A stretch of 64,000 bases of DNA from Gemmatimonadota bacterium (GTDB lineage: Bacteria; Gemmatimonadota; Gemmatimonadetes; Gemmatimonadales; Gemmatimonadaceae): the NCBI GenBank assembly GCA_003134685.1, contig PLCA01000003.1, positions 307,174 to 371,173 of the forward strand. The letters are read 5' to 3'. The position numbers and the translations under genes are program-made. The number at the start of each line of letters is the position of its first letter. Position 1 is the first letter of the stretch. The notes under the pieces were generated by a model that had not been told where the DNA came from, did not search any database, and saw only the letters and a list, made by a program, of their open reading frames with translations. This document shows, one piece after another, positions 14,317-20,752 of the stretch.

Positions 14317-14856
14317 ATGAGAGCGACCCGTACCCTGTTGGCCGCAATGGTGCTCGGAACCGCCATCGGCGCAAGCCAGGCCAGTGCACAGTGCAGCGGC
14401 AACGCCGGCACGTGTAACACCACGAATACCGCATCAGTCACCGTTGGCGCGCTGGTCAAGCTCGGAATGACCACGTCCGCGACGGCCCTGACCAATCCTA
14501 CCGCTGACGATGTCGATCTAGGCCACGTCCTTGCGGATGCAGGCCCGACCTTCACGATCAAGGCGAACAGAAGCTGGACGCTGAAGATCAAGTCGCAGAA
14601 CGCGGCGAGCTGGACGTACGTCGGCAGTGATGCCGGTGTGAAGCCGATCAGCGACCTTGCATGGTCGACCGCGGTTGGTGGAACCTTCGCAGCGATTACC
14701 GCAGCCGACGCGACGTTCACTTCGGGCGGGAGCTCGACGAACGGTACGGCAGCACAGGCCTTCTTCAGAACGAGCTGGACGTCTGACTTCACGAGCGCAA
14801 GCAATGCTCCAGGTACCTACAGCTTGCCGATCGTTTTCACCCTGACGGCTCCGTAA
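14317..14856 (+). CDS. Secreted pilin-like subunit A
   Basis: A 179-residue secreted protein with a clear Sec signal (MRATRTLLAAMVLGTAIG, cleavage near ASAQ). Two Cys sit at the mature N-terminus (QCSGNAGTC) and could form a disulphide. The rest is Ser/Thr/Ala/Gly-rich and predicted all-beta, ending GTYSLPIVFTLTAP. The same layout and the same C-terminal G-x-Y-S strand recur in the last gene of the operon (19571-20119). A terminal beta-strand of this type is expected for chaperone-usher fibre subunits. GGAG lies 11 bases before the ATG. First gene of a six-gene operon; no name can be assigned. Confidence 0.75.
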   Translation: MRATRTLLAAMVLGTAIGASQASAQCSGNAGTCNTTNTASVTVGALVKLGMTTSATALTNPTADDVDLGHVLADAGPTFTIKANRSWTLKIKSQNAASWTYVGSDAGVKPISDLAWSTAVGGTFAAITAADATFTSGGSSTNGTAAQAFFRTSWTSDFTSASNAPGTYSLPIVFTLTAP

Positions 14857-14859
14857 CTG

Positions 14860-15753
14860 ATGCTTAATTCTCGCTCGCGCTCGCCCGAAAGGGCGGGCGT
14901 TGAGCGCAGAGGGCGAGTACGGAGATCCGTACTCGCCCTTTGCGCTGTAATAGGGGTGGTGGTCTCGCAGCCCGCGTCCGCGCAGCTGCTGGTAGATCCG
15001 CTCGAGGTGACCATGGTCACCGCCGCCACGACCCGCGTGTCAGCCAGCTTCTCGCTGTCGAACACGTCCAACGAGGTCGTCCAGGCGTCGATCACGCGCT
15101 CGGACTGGGACCGCGTCGAGAACGGCGACAATCGCTTTCTGCCAGCTGGCTCGAGCGGCACGTCGTGCGGCTCCATGCTCACCGTCTCGCCTCTCTCGAT
15201 CCGCGTCGAGCCGCACACCTCCCGCATTGTCCGCCTCGCCGCTCAAACGGACGTGGCCGTGACGAAAGAGTGCTGGGATATCTTCTTCGTCGAGGAAGTG
15301 CCAAGGCGCGCTTCGGCAAAGGGCAACTCGCTCCAGTACATCTTCCGGACCGGCGTGAAAGTCTACGTCGCGCCTCCCGGGCTCTCGCGCGATGGAGCGG
15401 TCGAGAACATGGCCGTCGAAGACGTCCCGGTTACCCCGGCGACCTCGTCGACGACCCCAGTCACGACCGTTGCGCGTGCTCCAGTGGCAACCAAGCGCCA
15501 GATCTCCGTGCGCTTCCACAACACCGGCGGGATGCATCTGGTCGCCAAGGGACGTTTGGAGTTTCGACGTCTCGACAACTCGCTCGCGATGCAGGTCCCG
15601 ATCACGGAATTCCCGACACTACCTGGCGCGACCCGCAAAGTGATGGTCGATGTTCCGTCCGGGCTGGCTCCCGGAGATTACGTCGTACTCGCACTCATCG
15701 ATTTCGGCGGCGCGGAGCTCGTTGCCGGCCAGATCGATTTCCAGGCGAAGTAA
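14860..15753 (+). CDS. PapD-like periplasmic pilus chaperone
   Basis: A 297-residue secreted protein with a long basic n-region and signal core VLALCAVIGVVVSQPASAQ. The mature N-terminal Ig domain shows the fimbrial-chaperone pattern: LLVDPLEVTMVTAATTRVSASFSLSNTS, then LTVSPLSIRVEPHTSRIVRL, corresponding to the G1-strand region. A second beta domain follows after a proline/threonine-rich linker. Such chaperones stabilise pilin subunits in the periplasm by strand complementation. The ATG is three bases after the stop of subunit A. The n-region and part of the signal core are encoded inside a long RNA hairpin (14903-14946). Confidence 0.75.
   Translation: MLNSRSRSPERAGVERRGRVRRSVLALCAVIGVVVSQPASAQLLVDPLEVTMVTAATTRVSASFSLSNTSNEVVQASITRSDWDRVENGDNRFLPAGSSGTSCGSMLTVSPLSIRVEPHTSRIVRLAAQTDVAVTKECWDIFFVEEVPRRASAKGNSLQYIFRTGVKVYVAPPGLSRDGAVENMAVEDVPVTPATSSTTPVTTVARAPVATKRQISVRFHNTGGMHLVAKGRLEFRRLDNSLAMQVPITEFPTLPGATRKVMVDVPSGLAPGDYVVLALIDFGGAELVAGQIDFQAK
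14903..14946 (+). repeat. 21-bp-arm hairpin at the pilin/chaperone junction
   Basis: Two 21-base arms are complementary with a single G-U pair and a 2-base GA turn. The 5' arm begins AGCGCAGAGGGCGAG and the 3' arm ends CTCGCCCTTTGCGCT. A smaller CGCCC-GAAA-GGGCG hairpin precedes it at 14882-14895. The structure begins 46 bases after the pilin-like stop and lies within the chaperone coding sequence. Hairpins at this position in known fimbrial operons stabilise the major-subunit mRNA or attenuate downstream genes. Confidence 0.75.
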
Positions 15754-15754
15754 C

Positions 15755-16258
15755 GTGTCTACGCTCAAGCGGAAGCTATTCAGCGGCAGCACCAGCGCGG
15801 CGATCTCGCTGTCGCTGGCTCTGCTCGCGTCTCCGCTGGCGGCGCAGAACCCGGTTACGTCGCTCACTCTGGCCGGCCAGGTGATCACGTTCCCCGCGCC
15901 GACAGCCGCCGATTACATCGCCGGCTTCGTCAATTCGGCGACTGGCGTCACGTTCACTATCAACGCGACCAGCGGCAATCAGTCGCATACGACCACGGTC
16001 CTGATTCGGGCGACTTCGGCGAATCTGGGTGGCGGCAAGGTACTGGCCGATCTGCAGTGGCGCCGATCCGATCTGGCGACATGGAACAGCATCACTTCCG
16101 TCAATGCTGCGGTCGAGGCGCGCACAGTGGTCCGGAATGGAACGAACGATCCGTGGAATAACGTGATCTTCTTCCGCCTGATACTCCGTTGGGCCACCGA
16201 TCCGCCAGCTACCTACTCGGGGAACTACTCGATCACGCTCTCGCAGACGGTCCCGTGA
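15755..16258 (+). CDS. Secreted fibre subunit-like protein B
   Basis: A 167-residue protein read from a GTG one base after the chaperone stop. It has a signal peptide (LKRKLFSGSTSAAISLSLALLASPLAAQ). The mature part is Thr/Asn-rich and predicted all-beta, and ends SGNYSITLSQTVP, echoing the G-x-Y-S terminal strand of the two pilin-like proteins. It lacks their N-terminal Cys pair. The stop overlaps the next gene's start (GTGA). A minor subunit or adaptor role is inferred. Confidence 0.7.
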   Translation: MSTLKRKLFSGSTSAAISLSLALLASPLAAQNPVTSLTLAGQVITFPAPTAADYIAGFVNSATGVTFTINATSGNQSHTTTVLIRATSANLGGGKVLADLQWRRSDLATWNSITSVNAAVEARTVVRNGTNDPWNNVIFFRLILRWATDPPATYSGNYSITLSQTVP

Positions 16259-19119
16259 TCGCGCACGTCCGCGGCGTAGTTGTCGCTGCATTCGCTTTCG
16301 TCGTTTCGGGCGTCCTCTCGACGGTTACGGCGCAATCGGCTTCCGCTCCGGCGCCAGGGGTTGGAGTCCGTGCCACATCACTGATCATGGAGAATGGCTC
16401 AAGATCCGACTCGGCGAGCGACGTCGAGATCACGCTCCCGTCCGTCACAGCGTCTGGCGCGCCTCGCAGCTACCAGGTCGTTTCCATCCCAGTTCCAGAC
16501 GCTTTTGCACGCGTCATGAAACTGGACGTCGAGGTCATACCGCACGGAGACTTTGTCGTCCTTGGCCCCCGCACACGCTCGCTTGCCAGCACCAGCAGAG
16601 GCCGAGTGGGGGTAACGATCGGGATTCCGGCCAGCGCGCTGGCGGGACGGCTCGTGGCCGCGGAAGCACGCTTCTCCTCCCCAGCCTCGGCCACGCTCGT
16701 TGTGCCGATCGAGATAGATGTCAACCTCGTCCGCCAGATCCTTCTTCGTCCAGGATCTGCCGCGATCAACGCGCAGGCCGGCAACGACGTGATCCTGCCG
16801 TTCGAGATCGCCAACACTGGAAACGCCCTCGAGACTGTTCAGGCTGAGCTCACACTTCCGGTCGGATGGGCATTGCGAGAGGTGCATCAGGCGCCAATCA
16901 TGATCAGCCCGGGTCAAACGATAAAGCGCCGCGTCAGGCTCGCGATTCCCGCGCTCTCCAGCACCGGTTCGTCGTTCGTTCGCATCGACCTCAGCGAAAA
17001 GGGCGAGGCCCTGGACTCCAAGACAATGAGGGTGGAAGTGTTCAACTCGGGCTCGATTGGCAGCCAGGCGGGACCTCTCGTCACATCGGCATTCTCGCAC
17101 GCCGCCGACGAGAACCGACGCCCGAATAGTCTGTTCACACTGAGCGCCGTCGGCGCGCTTTACGATTCAGTCCGCATCGACGCCAGAATGTCGTCGGGTT
17201 CCGCGATCGGTGGTGCAGCCAGCAATGCTTTCGCTCGAATCGGGTCCTACCAGTCATCAGCGTCGGTCGTGCTGTCCGCTCCTTCTGGTCAGCTGAGCCT
17301 CGGCAATACCGGTACGTCGTTCTCCGATCTCACCGGCCTCTATCCATACGGCCAGGGTGCGCTCGTGCACGTGCAGAACGCGAAGTGGAATCTCACGAGC
17401 ATGGGCGCGCTGTCCATGGCGGCTCAGGGATCGACTGAGCGCAAGCCGATGCTCGGGTTGCGCGGCGAGCGGAGCTTCGGCGACTTACTTCTGAACAGCT
17501 CCATTACTCACCTCGCGGATGCCGGACTGTCGCCGCGCCGCCTGGACGCGTTCGGCGTCGGTGCCGCGGTGCCGACCCTCTTCGGCAGCACGCTCAAGGC
17601 TGAAGTCGCCGAGCGCCGGTTCCTTGGCGGAAGCGGAATCGGCTGGTCGAGCGAGCTGGTGCGGACGGACGCGGACAACACCGAGCAGCTGCGCCTGACT
17701 CATGCGCCTGGTGGAAGCGATGCTTACGCGCGCGCCACGAACGAGATGGTGGCCAACGTGTCGGAGCGGCTGACTTCGCGCGCGACGCTGAGCGGGAGTG
17801 CCTGGCGCACGACGGACGTGACTTCAGTATTCACCGGTATCAAGTCGAATGGGTTTTCAGTGCGACCGCAGTACGCGATCCGGGAAGCCACGACGATCGC
17901 GATCGAGATGCGCTCCTACCTCTTCGACGCGACCTCGCGTCCGGGAGTGTCCAACGCCGGCGGCGGGTTTGGAACCGAGGAACAGCAGCTTGGGATAAGC
18001 TTCAGCAGCTACCTGCGTCAGTATTACCTGAACAGCTCGGCGTATCTCGGCACCGTCACCCGCACGGTCACTCCGACGGGCGAGGCGACGCTGAGCAGCC
18101 GCACGCCGAGAAACTCCTGGGCGACCAATGCAGGGTGGTCGGGACCGGGTGGCCTCGTCGAGCTGCAGACACGCATCGAGCAAACGCGCGACGCAGGCGG
18201 CTTTGTCAATCAGCAGAGCATGATCGGCGTTCGGGGTCAGCAGGTGGTCCTCCCATGGTTTGGCGGCATCCGGGGCGAGGGTGAGCTGCAACGCGTCAAT
18301 GGATTCGGTGGTGACAACACCGCCATCATCCGGGCGGGGCTCGCCATTCCTCTGATCAACGGCTTTGCCCTCAAGATCGATGCCGAGCGCAACTCCATAT
18401 TCCACTCGGTCAGTGGCCGCGTGCCGTGGATTTTCGGCGCGCGCTTCGAGCATTCGATGACGATGCCAATGCTACGCACTCCTGGAACTTCGGGATACGT
18501 GTACGAGGATCTAAACGGGAATCAGCGTCGCGACAGCGGTGAGCCCGGCGTCGCCGGCGCAATGGTCAGACGTGGCTCCGAAACGGCGGTAGCCGACGCC
18601 AGCGGCAAGTATAGAGTGAGTGGCGATCAGACAAAACCGGTCACGATCGACGAAGCATCGCTTCCCGACGGATGGGCACCGAGTGGCCCGTCTATCGGTG
18701 ATCTAAGCGTGACGTTGTCAACGTCGGCCGAAGTCGAGCTAGTCGTCGCGCCACGGTCGGGCCTTTCGGCGGTGGTGGTCGATCTGAGCAAAGCGCACGT
18801 CGTCGCGCGCGACAGCGCAGGTCGCGAGTGGGCGGCCACAATGACGGGACCCACGACCGCCACGTTCGAGTCGCTACCGGTAGGAACTTACAAGCTCGAT
18901 TTCGATCTCTCGGAGTTGAGCGAGCCGCTCGTGCCGCGCACTCCACTGCCGTTGCTGGTTGTGAGCGGGAAAGATTCGAAGTCGATCACTGTCACGCTGG
19001 ATCCACGTCCGATTCGGATGTGGAACGGCACCGGCACGCAGGGCAGCGGCACACAGAAGAACAGCGCGCCGCCGAGCGACAAGAGCTCGAAGCCGACCGT
19101 CAATCCGAGTGGCTCATGA
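16255..19119 (+). CDS. Usher-like outer-membrane beta-barrel protein
   Basis: A 954-residue secreted protein starting at a GTG that overlaps the previous stop (GTGA). Regions are: signal peptide (to about residue 28); N-terminal Ig/NEW3-like beta domains with 'ILPFEIANTGNALETVQAEL' near residue 185; a long region (about 280-740) of alternating amphipathic strands, Ser/Gly/Arg-rich, as in outer-membrane barrels; then GYVYEDLNGNQRRDSGEPGV near residue 747, an SdrD-B/carboxypeptidase-regulatory-like module also found in some alpha-type ushers; and a low-complexity C-terminal tail. Length and operon position fit a fimbrial usher, but canonical usher motifs are not obvious. The assignment is structural inference. 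Confidence 0.6.
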   Translation: MIAHVRGVVVAAFAFVVSGVLSTVTAQSASAPAPGVGVRATSLIMENGSRSDSASDVEITLPSVTASGAPRSYQVVSIPVPDAFARVMKLDVEVIPHGDFVVLGPRTRSLASTSRGRVGVTIGIPASALAGRLVAAEARFSSPASATLVVPIEIDVNLVRQILLRPGSAAINAQAGNDVILPFEIANTGNALETVQAELTLPVGWALREVHQAPIMISPGQTIKRRVRLAIPALSSTGSSFVRIDLSEKGEALDSKTMRVEVFNSGSIGSQAGPLVTSAFSHAADENRRPNSLFTLSAVGALYDSVRIDARMSSGSAIGGAASNAFARIGSYQSSASVVLSAPSGQLSLGNTGTSFSDLTGLYPYGQGALVHVQNAKWNLTSMGALSMAAQGSTERKPMLGLRGERSFGDLLLNSSITHLADAGLSPRRLDAFGVGAAVPTLFGSTLKAEVAERRFLGGSGIGWSSELVRTDADNTEQLRLTHAPGGSDAYARATNEMVANVSERLTSRATLSGSAWRTTDVTSVFTGIKSNGFSVRPQYAIREATTIAIEMRSYLFDATSRPGVSNAGGGFGTEEQQLGISFSSYLRQYYLNSSAYLGTVTRTVTPTGEATLSSRTPRNSWATNAGWSGPGGLVELQTRIEQTRDAGGFVNQQSMIGVRGQQVVLPWFGGIRGEGELQRVNGFGGDNTAIIRAGLAIPLINGFALKIDAERNSIFHSVSGRVPWIFGARFEHSMTMPMLRTPGTSGYVYEDLNGNQRRDSGEPGVAGAMVRRGSETAVADASGKYRVSGDQTKPVTIDEASLPDGWAPSGPSIGDLSVTLSTSAEVELVVAPRSGLSAVVVDLSKAHVVARDSAGREWAATMTGPTTATFESLPVGTYKLDFDLSELSEPLVPRTPLPLLVVSGKDSKSITVTLDPRPIRMWNGTGTQGSGTQKNSAPPSDKSSKPTVNPSGS

Positions 19120-19574
19120 ACGGCGTGACGAGACCGTGGGCTCGGACGACTCTTGGAGCGCTCCTGTTCGCGAGCAGCTCGCTGCTCGCGGCGTGTCTCA
19201 AGTCCACTGAACCGCAAGCGTCGCTGCTGGATCTCAACGGTTCGTGGAACTACGCCGGAGTCCAGACGAGCCCCGTGCGCGAGACTCTCACCGGAACGCT
19301 GACGATCTCACGTGAATCGGGGATGAGCTTTCAAGGAAACCTCGTTCTTCAGAGCGTGGATGAACGAACCGGTCAGCCCAGAAGCCTTAATGGTGTCGTA
19401 AGTGGCACCGAGAGCGGAGTTGACGTCATCGACTTCGATGCGGACGTCGAGTCGCCTGCGCGCAGGCATGTGGGTCGGATCGTAGCGGACACAATTACCG
19501 GGACCTGGATCGGCTCCTCACCAGATGGGACCACGTCTTCCGGAACCTTTAGAGTTGAACGGGAGACGAAATGA
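19116..19574 (+). CDS. Predicted lipoprotein of the pilin-like operon
   Basis: A 152-residue protein with a lipoprotein signal (LGALLFASSSLLAACLKS, lipobox LLAAC). The mature part starts with LDLNGSWNYAG and contains repeated G-T-W/G-T-F turns (TGTWIGSSPDGTTSSGTF), predicted as a small beta-barrel or beta-sandwich. Both ends overlap neighbours by four bases (ATGA at each junction), so it is an integral member of the operon. An assembly or anchoring role in the outer membrane is inferred; the family is not recognised. Confidence 0.7.
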   Translation: MNGVTRPWARTTLGALLFASSSLLAACLKSTEPQASLLDLNGSWNYAGVQTSPVRETLTGTLTISRESGMSFQGNLVLQSVDERTGQPRSLNGVVSGTESGVDVIDFDADVESPARRHVGRIVADTITGTWIGSSPDGTTSSGTFRVERETK

Positions 19575-20119
19575 GAAGATCGGCTGGATTCGGCATAACG
19601 CTAATAGCCATGCTGATCGGTGCGTCGGCGCAGCCCGGCGCCGCAGGCGCTCAGTGCAATGCGTCTGGCGCCGGTGGCACCTGCAATCAGGCAGGCAGCG
19701 TAACCATGACTGCTGGTCGCGTGGTGAGACTCCAGATGACAGCGGCCTCGACCGCGCTCACACCACCGACGCCAACCGATTTCGATGCGGGCTTCAACGC
19801 CACAACGGGACCGACCCTGACCATCAGCTCCAACGCCGCTTGGACCCTCCACATTCGCTCCGCGGCGACGTTCTGGACCGCCACGAACACATCACCCGGC
19901 GCTCCGGCGCGCACGACAAAACCCGCGGCGGATCTCAAGTGGAGCACCGCGTCGAACGGGACGTTCAACGGGCTCACGACCAGCGACGTAAACCTCGTCA
20001 CGGGTGTTGCGACCGCGAGCAGCGTAACCACGCTGTTCTTCCAGACGCTTTACAGCTGGACGCTGGACACCCCCGGCAACTACAGCCTAGCGGTCGTTCT
20101 GACGCTGACATCCCCCTAG
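19571..20119 (+). CDS. Secreted pilin-like subunit A paralogue
   Basis: A 182-residue secreted protein with signal peptide (FGITLIAMLIGASAQPGAAGAQ) and the same mature layout as the first operon gene. It has a Cys pair near the start (QCNASGAGGTC), an S-V-T-(V/M)-x-(A)G-x-(L/V)-V-(K/R)-L motif, T-A-L-T-x-P-T, G-P-T-(F/L)-T-I, W-T-L-(K/H)-I and a terminal GNYSLAVVLTLTSP. The two are clear paralogues that bracket the operon, as a major and a tip or minor subunit might. The ATGA overlaps the lipoprotein stop. Confidence 0.75.
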   Translation: MRRSAGFGITLIAMLIGASAQPGAAGAQCNASGAGGTCNQAGSVTMTAGRVVRLQMTAASTALTPPTPTDFDAGFNATTGPTLTISSNAAWTLHIRSAATFWTATNTSPGAPARTTKPAADLKWSTASNGTFNGLTTSDVNLVTGVATASSVTTLFFQTLYSWTLDTPGNYSLAVVLTLTSP

Positions 20120-20383: not shown

Positions 20384-20752
20384 ATGTCACGCAACAAAAA
20401 GGGGTTTACCCTTATTGAGCTTTTGATCGTAGTCGTCATCATCGGCATTCTTGCCGCGATCGCGATTCCGAAGTTTGCGAACACGAAGGACAAGGCGTAC
20501 GTCGCCGCGATGAAGTCTGACCTTCGCAACATGGCTACCTACGAAGAGCAGTACGCCGCCGACAACAACGGCGCGTATTTCGGTGGAACCGCCACCAGCC
20601 TGGCTCCTCTGCAGGGTTTCAGCCCGTCGCAGAACGTGACGGTCGTCATCGTGAACGTCGCCGGCCCGCCGGGTTCATGGAGCGGCACTGCCACGCACTC
20701 GCAGTCCGCCAAGGTTTGCAGCATGGCCAACGGTGTGATCGCCTGCGTGTAA
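20384..20752 (+). CDS. Type IV pilin-like major prepilin
   Basis: A 122-residue prepilin. The leader MSRNKKG is followed by the class III signal G|FTLIELLIVVVIIGILAAIA, with processing after Gly and the conserved Glu at mature position 5, so PilD-type processing and methylation are expected. The globular domain is short and contains two Cys (KVCSMANGVIACV) at the C-terminus, typical of a pilin D-loop. The start has AGGAG 8 bases upstream. It is a single gene ended by a strong terminator. It could be the PilA-like major pilin or a T2SS-type pseudopilin; no assembly genes are in the window. Confidence 0.93.
   Translation: MSRNKKGFTLIELLIVVVIIGILAAIAIPKFANTKDKAYVAAMKSDLRNMATYEEQYAADNNGAYFGGTATSLAPLQGFSPSQNVTVVIVNVAGPPGSWSGTATHSQSAKVCSMANGVIACV

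Follow-up and report, generated by a model that had tools for sequence, protein, structure and literature searches.

A six-gene operon of Gemmatimonadota with the features of a probable, divergent chaperone-usher pathway

The window analysed here is a stretch of 64,000 nucleotides from the genome of a soil bacterium of the Gemmatimonadota. Six intact genes lie at positions 14317-20119 of this window, and their lengths and junctions agree to the base with those given in the original prediction, which had read them as a jointly expressed operon for a surface fibre of the chaperone-usher kind (Table 1). When the six proteins are compared with Pfam, the chaperone matches PapD_N (E 2.3e-8) and the 954-residue protein matches NPCBM_assoc and SdrD_B, in agreement with the Ig-like and SdrD-B-like modules anticipated for the latter. 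Among the profiles proposed as a check, PapD_N is therefore recovered in the chaperone, while Usher, SCPU and DUF4402 are found in none of the six proteins; the same is true of PapC_N. Pfam gives no significant match for the subunits or the lipoprotein. On the same strand, 267 bases past the operon (window positions 20387-20752), lies a gene for a type IV pilin or pseudopilin (N_methyl, E 8e-11), a pilus protein of a different kind from the operon subunits.

Table 1. Genes, protein regions and RNA features of the operon (window positions).
Feature	Position	Strand	Description
A1	14317..14856	+	Secreted subunit of 179 aa, pilin-like, its N-terminus bearing a donor-strand-like extension; probably the major subunit
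Hairpin pair	14877-14900 and 14903-14946	+	Downstream of A1, in the 5' part of the chaperone gene; probably an attenuator or a stabiliser of the mRNA
Chaperone	14860..15753	+	PapD-like, two-domain, periplasmic, 297 aa; 3-base gap after A1
B	15755..16258	+	GTG start, 167 aa, A1/A2 family, without N-terminal extension; 1-base gap; probable tip or initiator
954-aa usher-like protein	16255..19119	+	GTGA overlap with B; conserved in Gemmatimonadota and Deinococcus
954-aa protein, residues 57-264	16423..17046	+	Two Ig-like domains (AlphaFold, structure matches, NPCBM_assoc)
954-aa protein, residues 265-745	17047..18489	+	Probable outer-membrane beta-barrel (strand count, composition)
954-aa protein, residues 746-925	18490..19029	+	Two beta-sandwich domains at the C-terminus, the first SdrD_B-like and the second CarboxypepD_reg-like
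Small lipoprotein	19116..19574	+	152 aa, lipobox LLAAC, ATGA overlap; putative accessory factor
A2	19571..20119	+	A1 paralogue with N-terminal extension, 182 aa, ATGA overlap; probable minor or basal subunit

Of 200 Gemmatimonadota genomes searched with the usher-like protein, about 16 contain full-length relatives. These are distributed over several families of the phylum, and the closest ones to be found come from MAGs of Gemmatimonadaceae. The original prediction had proposed to look for the same gene order in other members of the phylum, and a comparison of neighbourhoods indeed finds the order A-chaperone-B-usher-lipoprotein-A2 in close relatives as well as in distant ones, in which the usher-like protein is 22-30% identical and some loci contain additional pilin genes. 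Since this order is shared by many genomes at identities of 22-96%, the operon is conserved far beyond chance. Homologues of the lipoprotein account for 19 ORFs in related loci; in two of these loci (L042 and L047) the gene is inverted yet still adjacent. At the level of the class (L050 and L051) only the core A-chaperone-B-usher is left, and this four-gene core extends to other families of the class and to Deinococcus plasmids. Additional copies of the N-terminal Ig-like domain are found in the usher-like protein of L044, L045 and L051.

In the Deinococcus plasmid clusters (L083, 3139-8885; L084, 3282-8855) all four genes are annotated as 'hypothetical protein'. As in the window, a subunit, a chaperone, a second subunit and an usher-like protein of about 1000 residues follow one another in that order, and homology is clear for both the chaperones (E 4e-37 and 1.5e-33) and the usher-like proteins (E 1e-25 and 2e-21). 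The plasmid clusters differ from the window in having a bigger first subunit, in lacking the lipoprotein and A2, and in the loss of the chaperone anchoring lysine. Gemmatimonadota also possess clusters of another kind, here called type II (L063-L080 and L082), which comprise a chaperone, DUF4402 subunits and an usher of 850-1150 residues and occur in about 40 of 200 genomes. These type II clusters are commoner in the phylum than the system of the window and are likewise devoid of clear Pfam annotation. A canonical archaic cluster with SCPU and Usher proteins was found in one of 150 genomes (G068; L064, G068:C1:3702000-3716000).

The three secreted subunits postulated originally are all present, and their predicted G-x-Y-S endings appear as PGTYS, GNYS and PGNYS. 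The distinction of B as a separate kind of subunit did not hold: in iterated profile searches A1, B and A2 come together as one homologous family (A versus B, E 9e-17), which makes B a relative of the other two. The original prediction had seen no classic Csu or FimA pattern in the subunits; their profiles have no significant match to FimA, SCPU or DUF4402 and no relative among PDB sequences; SCPU subunits are also absent from the source genome. The AlphaFold model of A1 has a pLDDT of about 80 across residues 44-179. Its best structure matches are TLP-1a/b (PDB 9IKJ/9IKK; Z 8.8 and 8.6), Csu (8.1) and CS20 (8.0), followed by FimA and FimG (Z 7.6), and chaperone-usher pilins fill nearly all of the best 50 matches listed. 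Values of Z near 8 are middling and prove nothing alone, the telling feature being the uniformity of the list, and A1 is thus predicted by modelling to adopt the fold of a chaperone-usher pilin. In A1 and A2 the signal peptide is followed by a segment of about 20 residues that contains two cysteines and an alternating strand, which in A1 reads NTASVTVGAL. No such extension is present in B in a comparison from which some empty rows were left out. In known pili, a subunit devoid of a donor strand is possible only at the tip. By analogy, and because B has no donor-strand extension, B is probably the tip or the initiator of the fibre. A1 is the probable major subunit, to which the very strong hairpin following its gene would be well suited, and A2 a probable minor or basal one.

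The two hairpins downstream of A1 have an energy of -64 kcal/mol (z -8). Six relatives retain them, and 96% of the pair cells are formed as against 34-53% when the pairing is slid; covariation is weak, the stems being nearly invariant among these close relatives. Within the operon, no near-perfect stem of at least 11 bp exists apart from that of the 20-bp hairpin. At the corresponding junction, L044, L045 and the Deinococcus locus L084 have strong hairpins of unrelated sequence, in a comparison that leaves out L031, L032, L034, L035 and L039. A search for promoters above shuffle level and for Rfam families returned none. The hairpin likely raises the A1 message above that of the downstream genes, acting either as an attenuator or as a stabiliser of the mRNA.

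The PapD-like nature of the chaperone, already proposed in the original prediction, is supported both by the PapD_N match and by profile alignments across its two domains. Against PDB sequences it retrieves the CupB2 chaperone (E 3e-4), and alignments of its family that span the two domains are obtained with archaic (E 6e-13), type II (E 3e-11) and classical chaperones (E 2.7e-6). EcpB was undetected in this profile test; as EcpB is a genuine chaperone, its absence is uninformative. In the alignment the classical anchoring lysine is retained, as is the DYG-type motif of domain 2, while the position of the classical anchoring arginine is occupied by Glu in the window chaperone and its family, with Asp or Ile in a few members. 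Archaic and alternative chaperones are marked by an arginine in strand F1 (CsuC Arg89, EcpB Arg89; PMC4654587). In the corresponding column, EcpB and two archaic chaperones have Arg, the window chaperone has Asp, and most relatives have Asp, Ser, Ala or Asn. The domain 1 proline named as invariant (PMC4654587) is found within VEP in the window chaperone and at the same column in most relatives. Cysteines 103 and 138 are conserved in the Gemmatimonadota chaperones. Judged by its sequence, the chaperone is a member of the PapD-like superfamily, as the profile matches indicate, but one that the anchor residues set apart from the described classes.

These data bear on the possibility that the whole system belongs, as a divergent representative, to one of two known classes, archaic (sigma) or alternative (alpha). 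The chaperone profile is indeed nearest to that of archaic chaperones, the best structure matches of A1 include Csu, and archaic systems have already been reported in Deinococcus-Thermus (PMC4654587). Nonetheless, the marker arginine is replaced and the classical lysine retained, and neither SCPU in the subunits nor Usher in the usher-like protein is detected, whereas the archaic cluster of G068 matches both families well. Membership in the archaic or alternative class is therefore regarded as unlikely.

Ushers consist of a 24-strand outer-membrane barrel with a plug domain inside and two C-terminal domains. The Pfam families Usher and PapC_N match no member of the 954-residue family, and profile comparison detects nothing between the whole protein or its barrel region and the K-12 ushers, EcpC or the G068 usher; EcpC, a genuine usher, fails the same test of usher homology. 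NPCBM_assoc is found in 15 of 21 relatives. The AlphaFold model has a mean pLDDT of 41, and residues 57-264, at about 80, are its only usable part. Structure searches with this model return mostly Ig-like proteins, and the absence of ushers among the matches listed means nothing, because the confidence of the model is too low. At the C-terminus, the two domains in residues 738-919 each have a homologous counterpart at the end of type II ushers (hhalign E 4e-20).

Between these parts, residues 265-745 contain 25 candidate amphipathic strands, compared with 13.9 ± 2.7 in shuffled sequences and, by the same measure, 27 for barrel and plug together in four K-12 ushers; strand alternation is also present in the protein's own Ig domains and does not separate barrels from sandwiches by itself. 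Relative to these Ig domains, the region is poorer in aliphatics (0.25 vs 0.31) and proline and richer in aromatics (0.074 vs 0.035) and in G/S/T/N/Q/A/Y, a shift in the same direction as that of K-12 usher barrels. Its length is near-constant (464-503 residues in 19 Gemmatimonadota members). There is no evident space for a plug of 85 residues, although the strand method does not distinguish plug strands from barrel strands. On this sequence evidence, residues 265-745 probably form an outer-membrane beta-barrel. The 954-residue protein would then be the usher, to judge from the strand pattern, the composition, the position of the gene and the C-terminal domains held in common with type II ushers.

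It could be argued instead that the protein is a secreted array of beta-sandwiches, such as a large fibre or adhesin, and that the chaperone serves another export route. Every recognised domain of the protein is a beta-sandwich, AlphaFold gave no usable barrel, and strand alternation is not specific to barrels. However, residues 265-745 contain no recognised Ig-type family in any of 21 relatives, and the same shallow alignment that yielded a pLDDT of about 80 for the Ig domains failed to do so for this region. In the low-confidence model, residues 544-735 resemble an autotransporter barrel (Z 9.7, rmsd 5.3), which, like the usher-like composition, the steady length and the usher position of the gene in the operon, argues against a non-barrel protein, and the array is considered improbable.

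The six genes probably work together as a divergent chaperone-usher pathway that assembles a thin surface fibre. The machine would be a far-diverged form of the one found in E. coli pili. A1, B and A2 would reach the periplasm by means of their signal peptides, where a strand of the chaperone would complete their unfinished Ig fold while holding the subunit C-terminus. The 954-residue protein would form a barrel in the outer membrane, with Ig-like domains N-terminal and two beta-sandwich domains C-terminal to it, and would take the chaperone-subunit pairs and export the growing fibre, which by analogy would polymerise through donor-strand exchange. B, having no donor strand of its own, would initiate the fibre and occupy its tip; A1, overproduced owing to the strong hairpin after its gene, would be the major repeating unit, and A2 a minor or basal one. 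The lipoprotein may be an accessory factor of the outer membrane.

A relationship with WxL-type surface complexes, in which the chaperone would be a relative of WxL-interacting proteins and the subunits would coat the cell surface, is very improbable: the Deinococcus chaperones match WxLIP_PGBD weakly, below the cut-off, and have distant relatives in Streptomyces plasmids, but the window chaperone is above the PapD_N cut-off with no WxLIP match, and the subunits have a modelled pilin-like fold and N-terminal extensions. The distant relatives of the Deinococcus chaperones in Gram-positives come from Streptomyces and Nonomuraea records (H11-H15) and are perhaps WxL-interacting-like.

Most known chaperone-usher pili come from proteobacteria, and a few other phyla possess archaic forms. 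The pathway proposed for the window most likely represents a new divergent lineage, possibly with a plug-less usher. A more detailed version, offered tentatively and with some doubt, is that of a further lineage in Gemmatimonadota and Deinococcota in which the usher has no plug and is gated, or recruits its substrates, via the two N-terminal Ig-like domains, and in which the anchoring of the chaperone is neither classical nor archaic. The top literature matches contain no paper on DUF4402 together with chaperone-usher systems, or on chaperone-usher systems of Gemmatimonadota, and a described relative may exist. If the interpretation is correct, such a sequence-divergent lineage, its chaperone being a hybrid and its usher possibly plug-less, would be informative about the origin of the pathway and about which parts of an usher are indispensable. 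Fibres on the surface of soil bacteria, now annotated as hypothetical, would also gain a function.

Compared with archaic pili (Csu, CupE; SCPU subunits), the system has the same gene set of subunit, chaperone and, probably, usher, as well as the nearest chaperone profile and the Csu match of A1. It differs from them in the missing SCPU and Usher matches, in a chaperone without the archaic Arg and with the classical Lys, in the additional N-terminal Ig-like domains of the usher-like protein, and in the presence of a lipoprotein gene in the operon. With the classical Fim and Pap pili it shares the anchoring Lys and DYG motif of the chaperone and the FimA and FimG matches of the A1 model, whereas the anchoring Arg is changed to Glu and there is no match to PapC_N, Usher or a fimbrial subunit family. 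The type II clusters resemble it in their occurrence in Gemmatimonadota, in their homologous chaperone and in the homologous tandem domains at the usher C-terminus; they differ in their DUF4402 subunits, in another N-terminus of the usher, and in a plug-like usher region that is in register with that of K-12 ushers (hhalign E 0.0016). The match of type II ushers to Usher is itself weak (best E 0.0015, in 2 of 16 members). Through the homologies shared with these type II systems, the operon of the window is placed, at the level of sequence, in the wider chaperone-usher world, which does not amount to membership of a described class.
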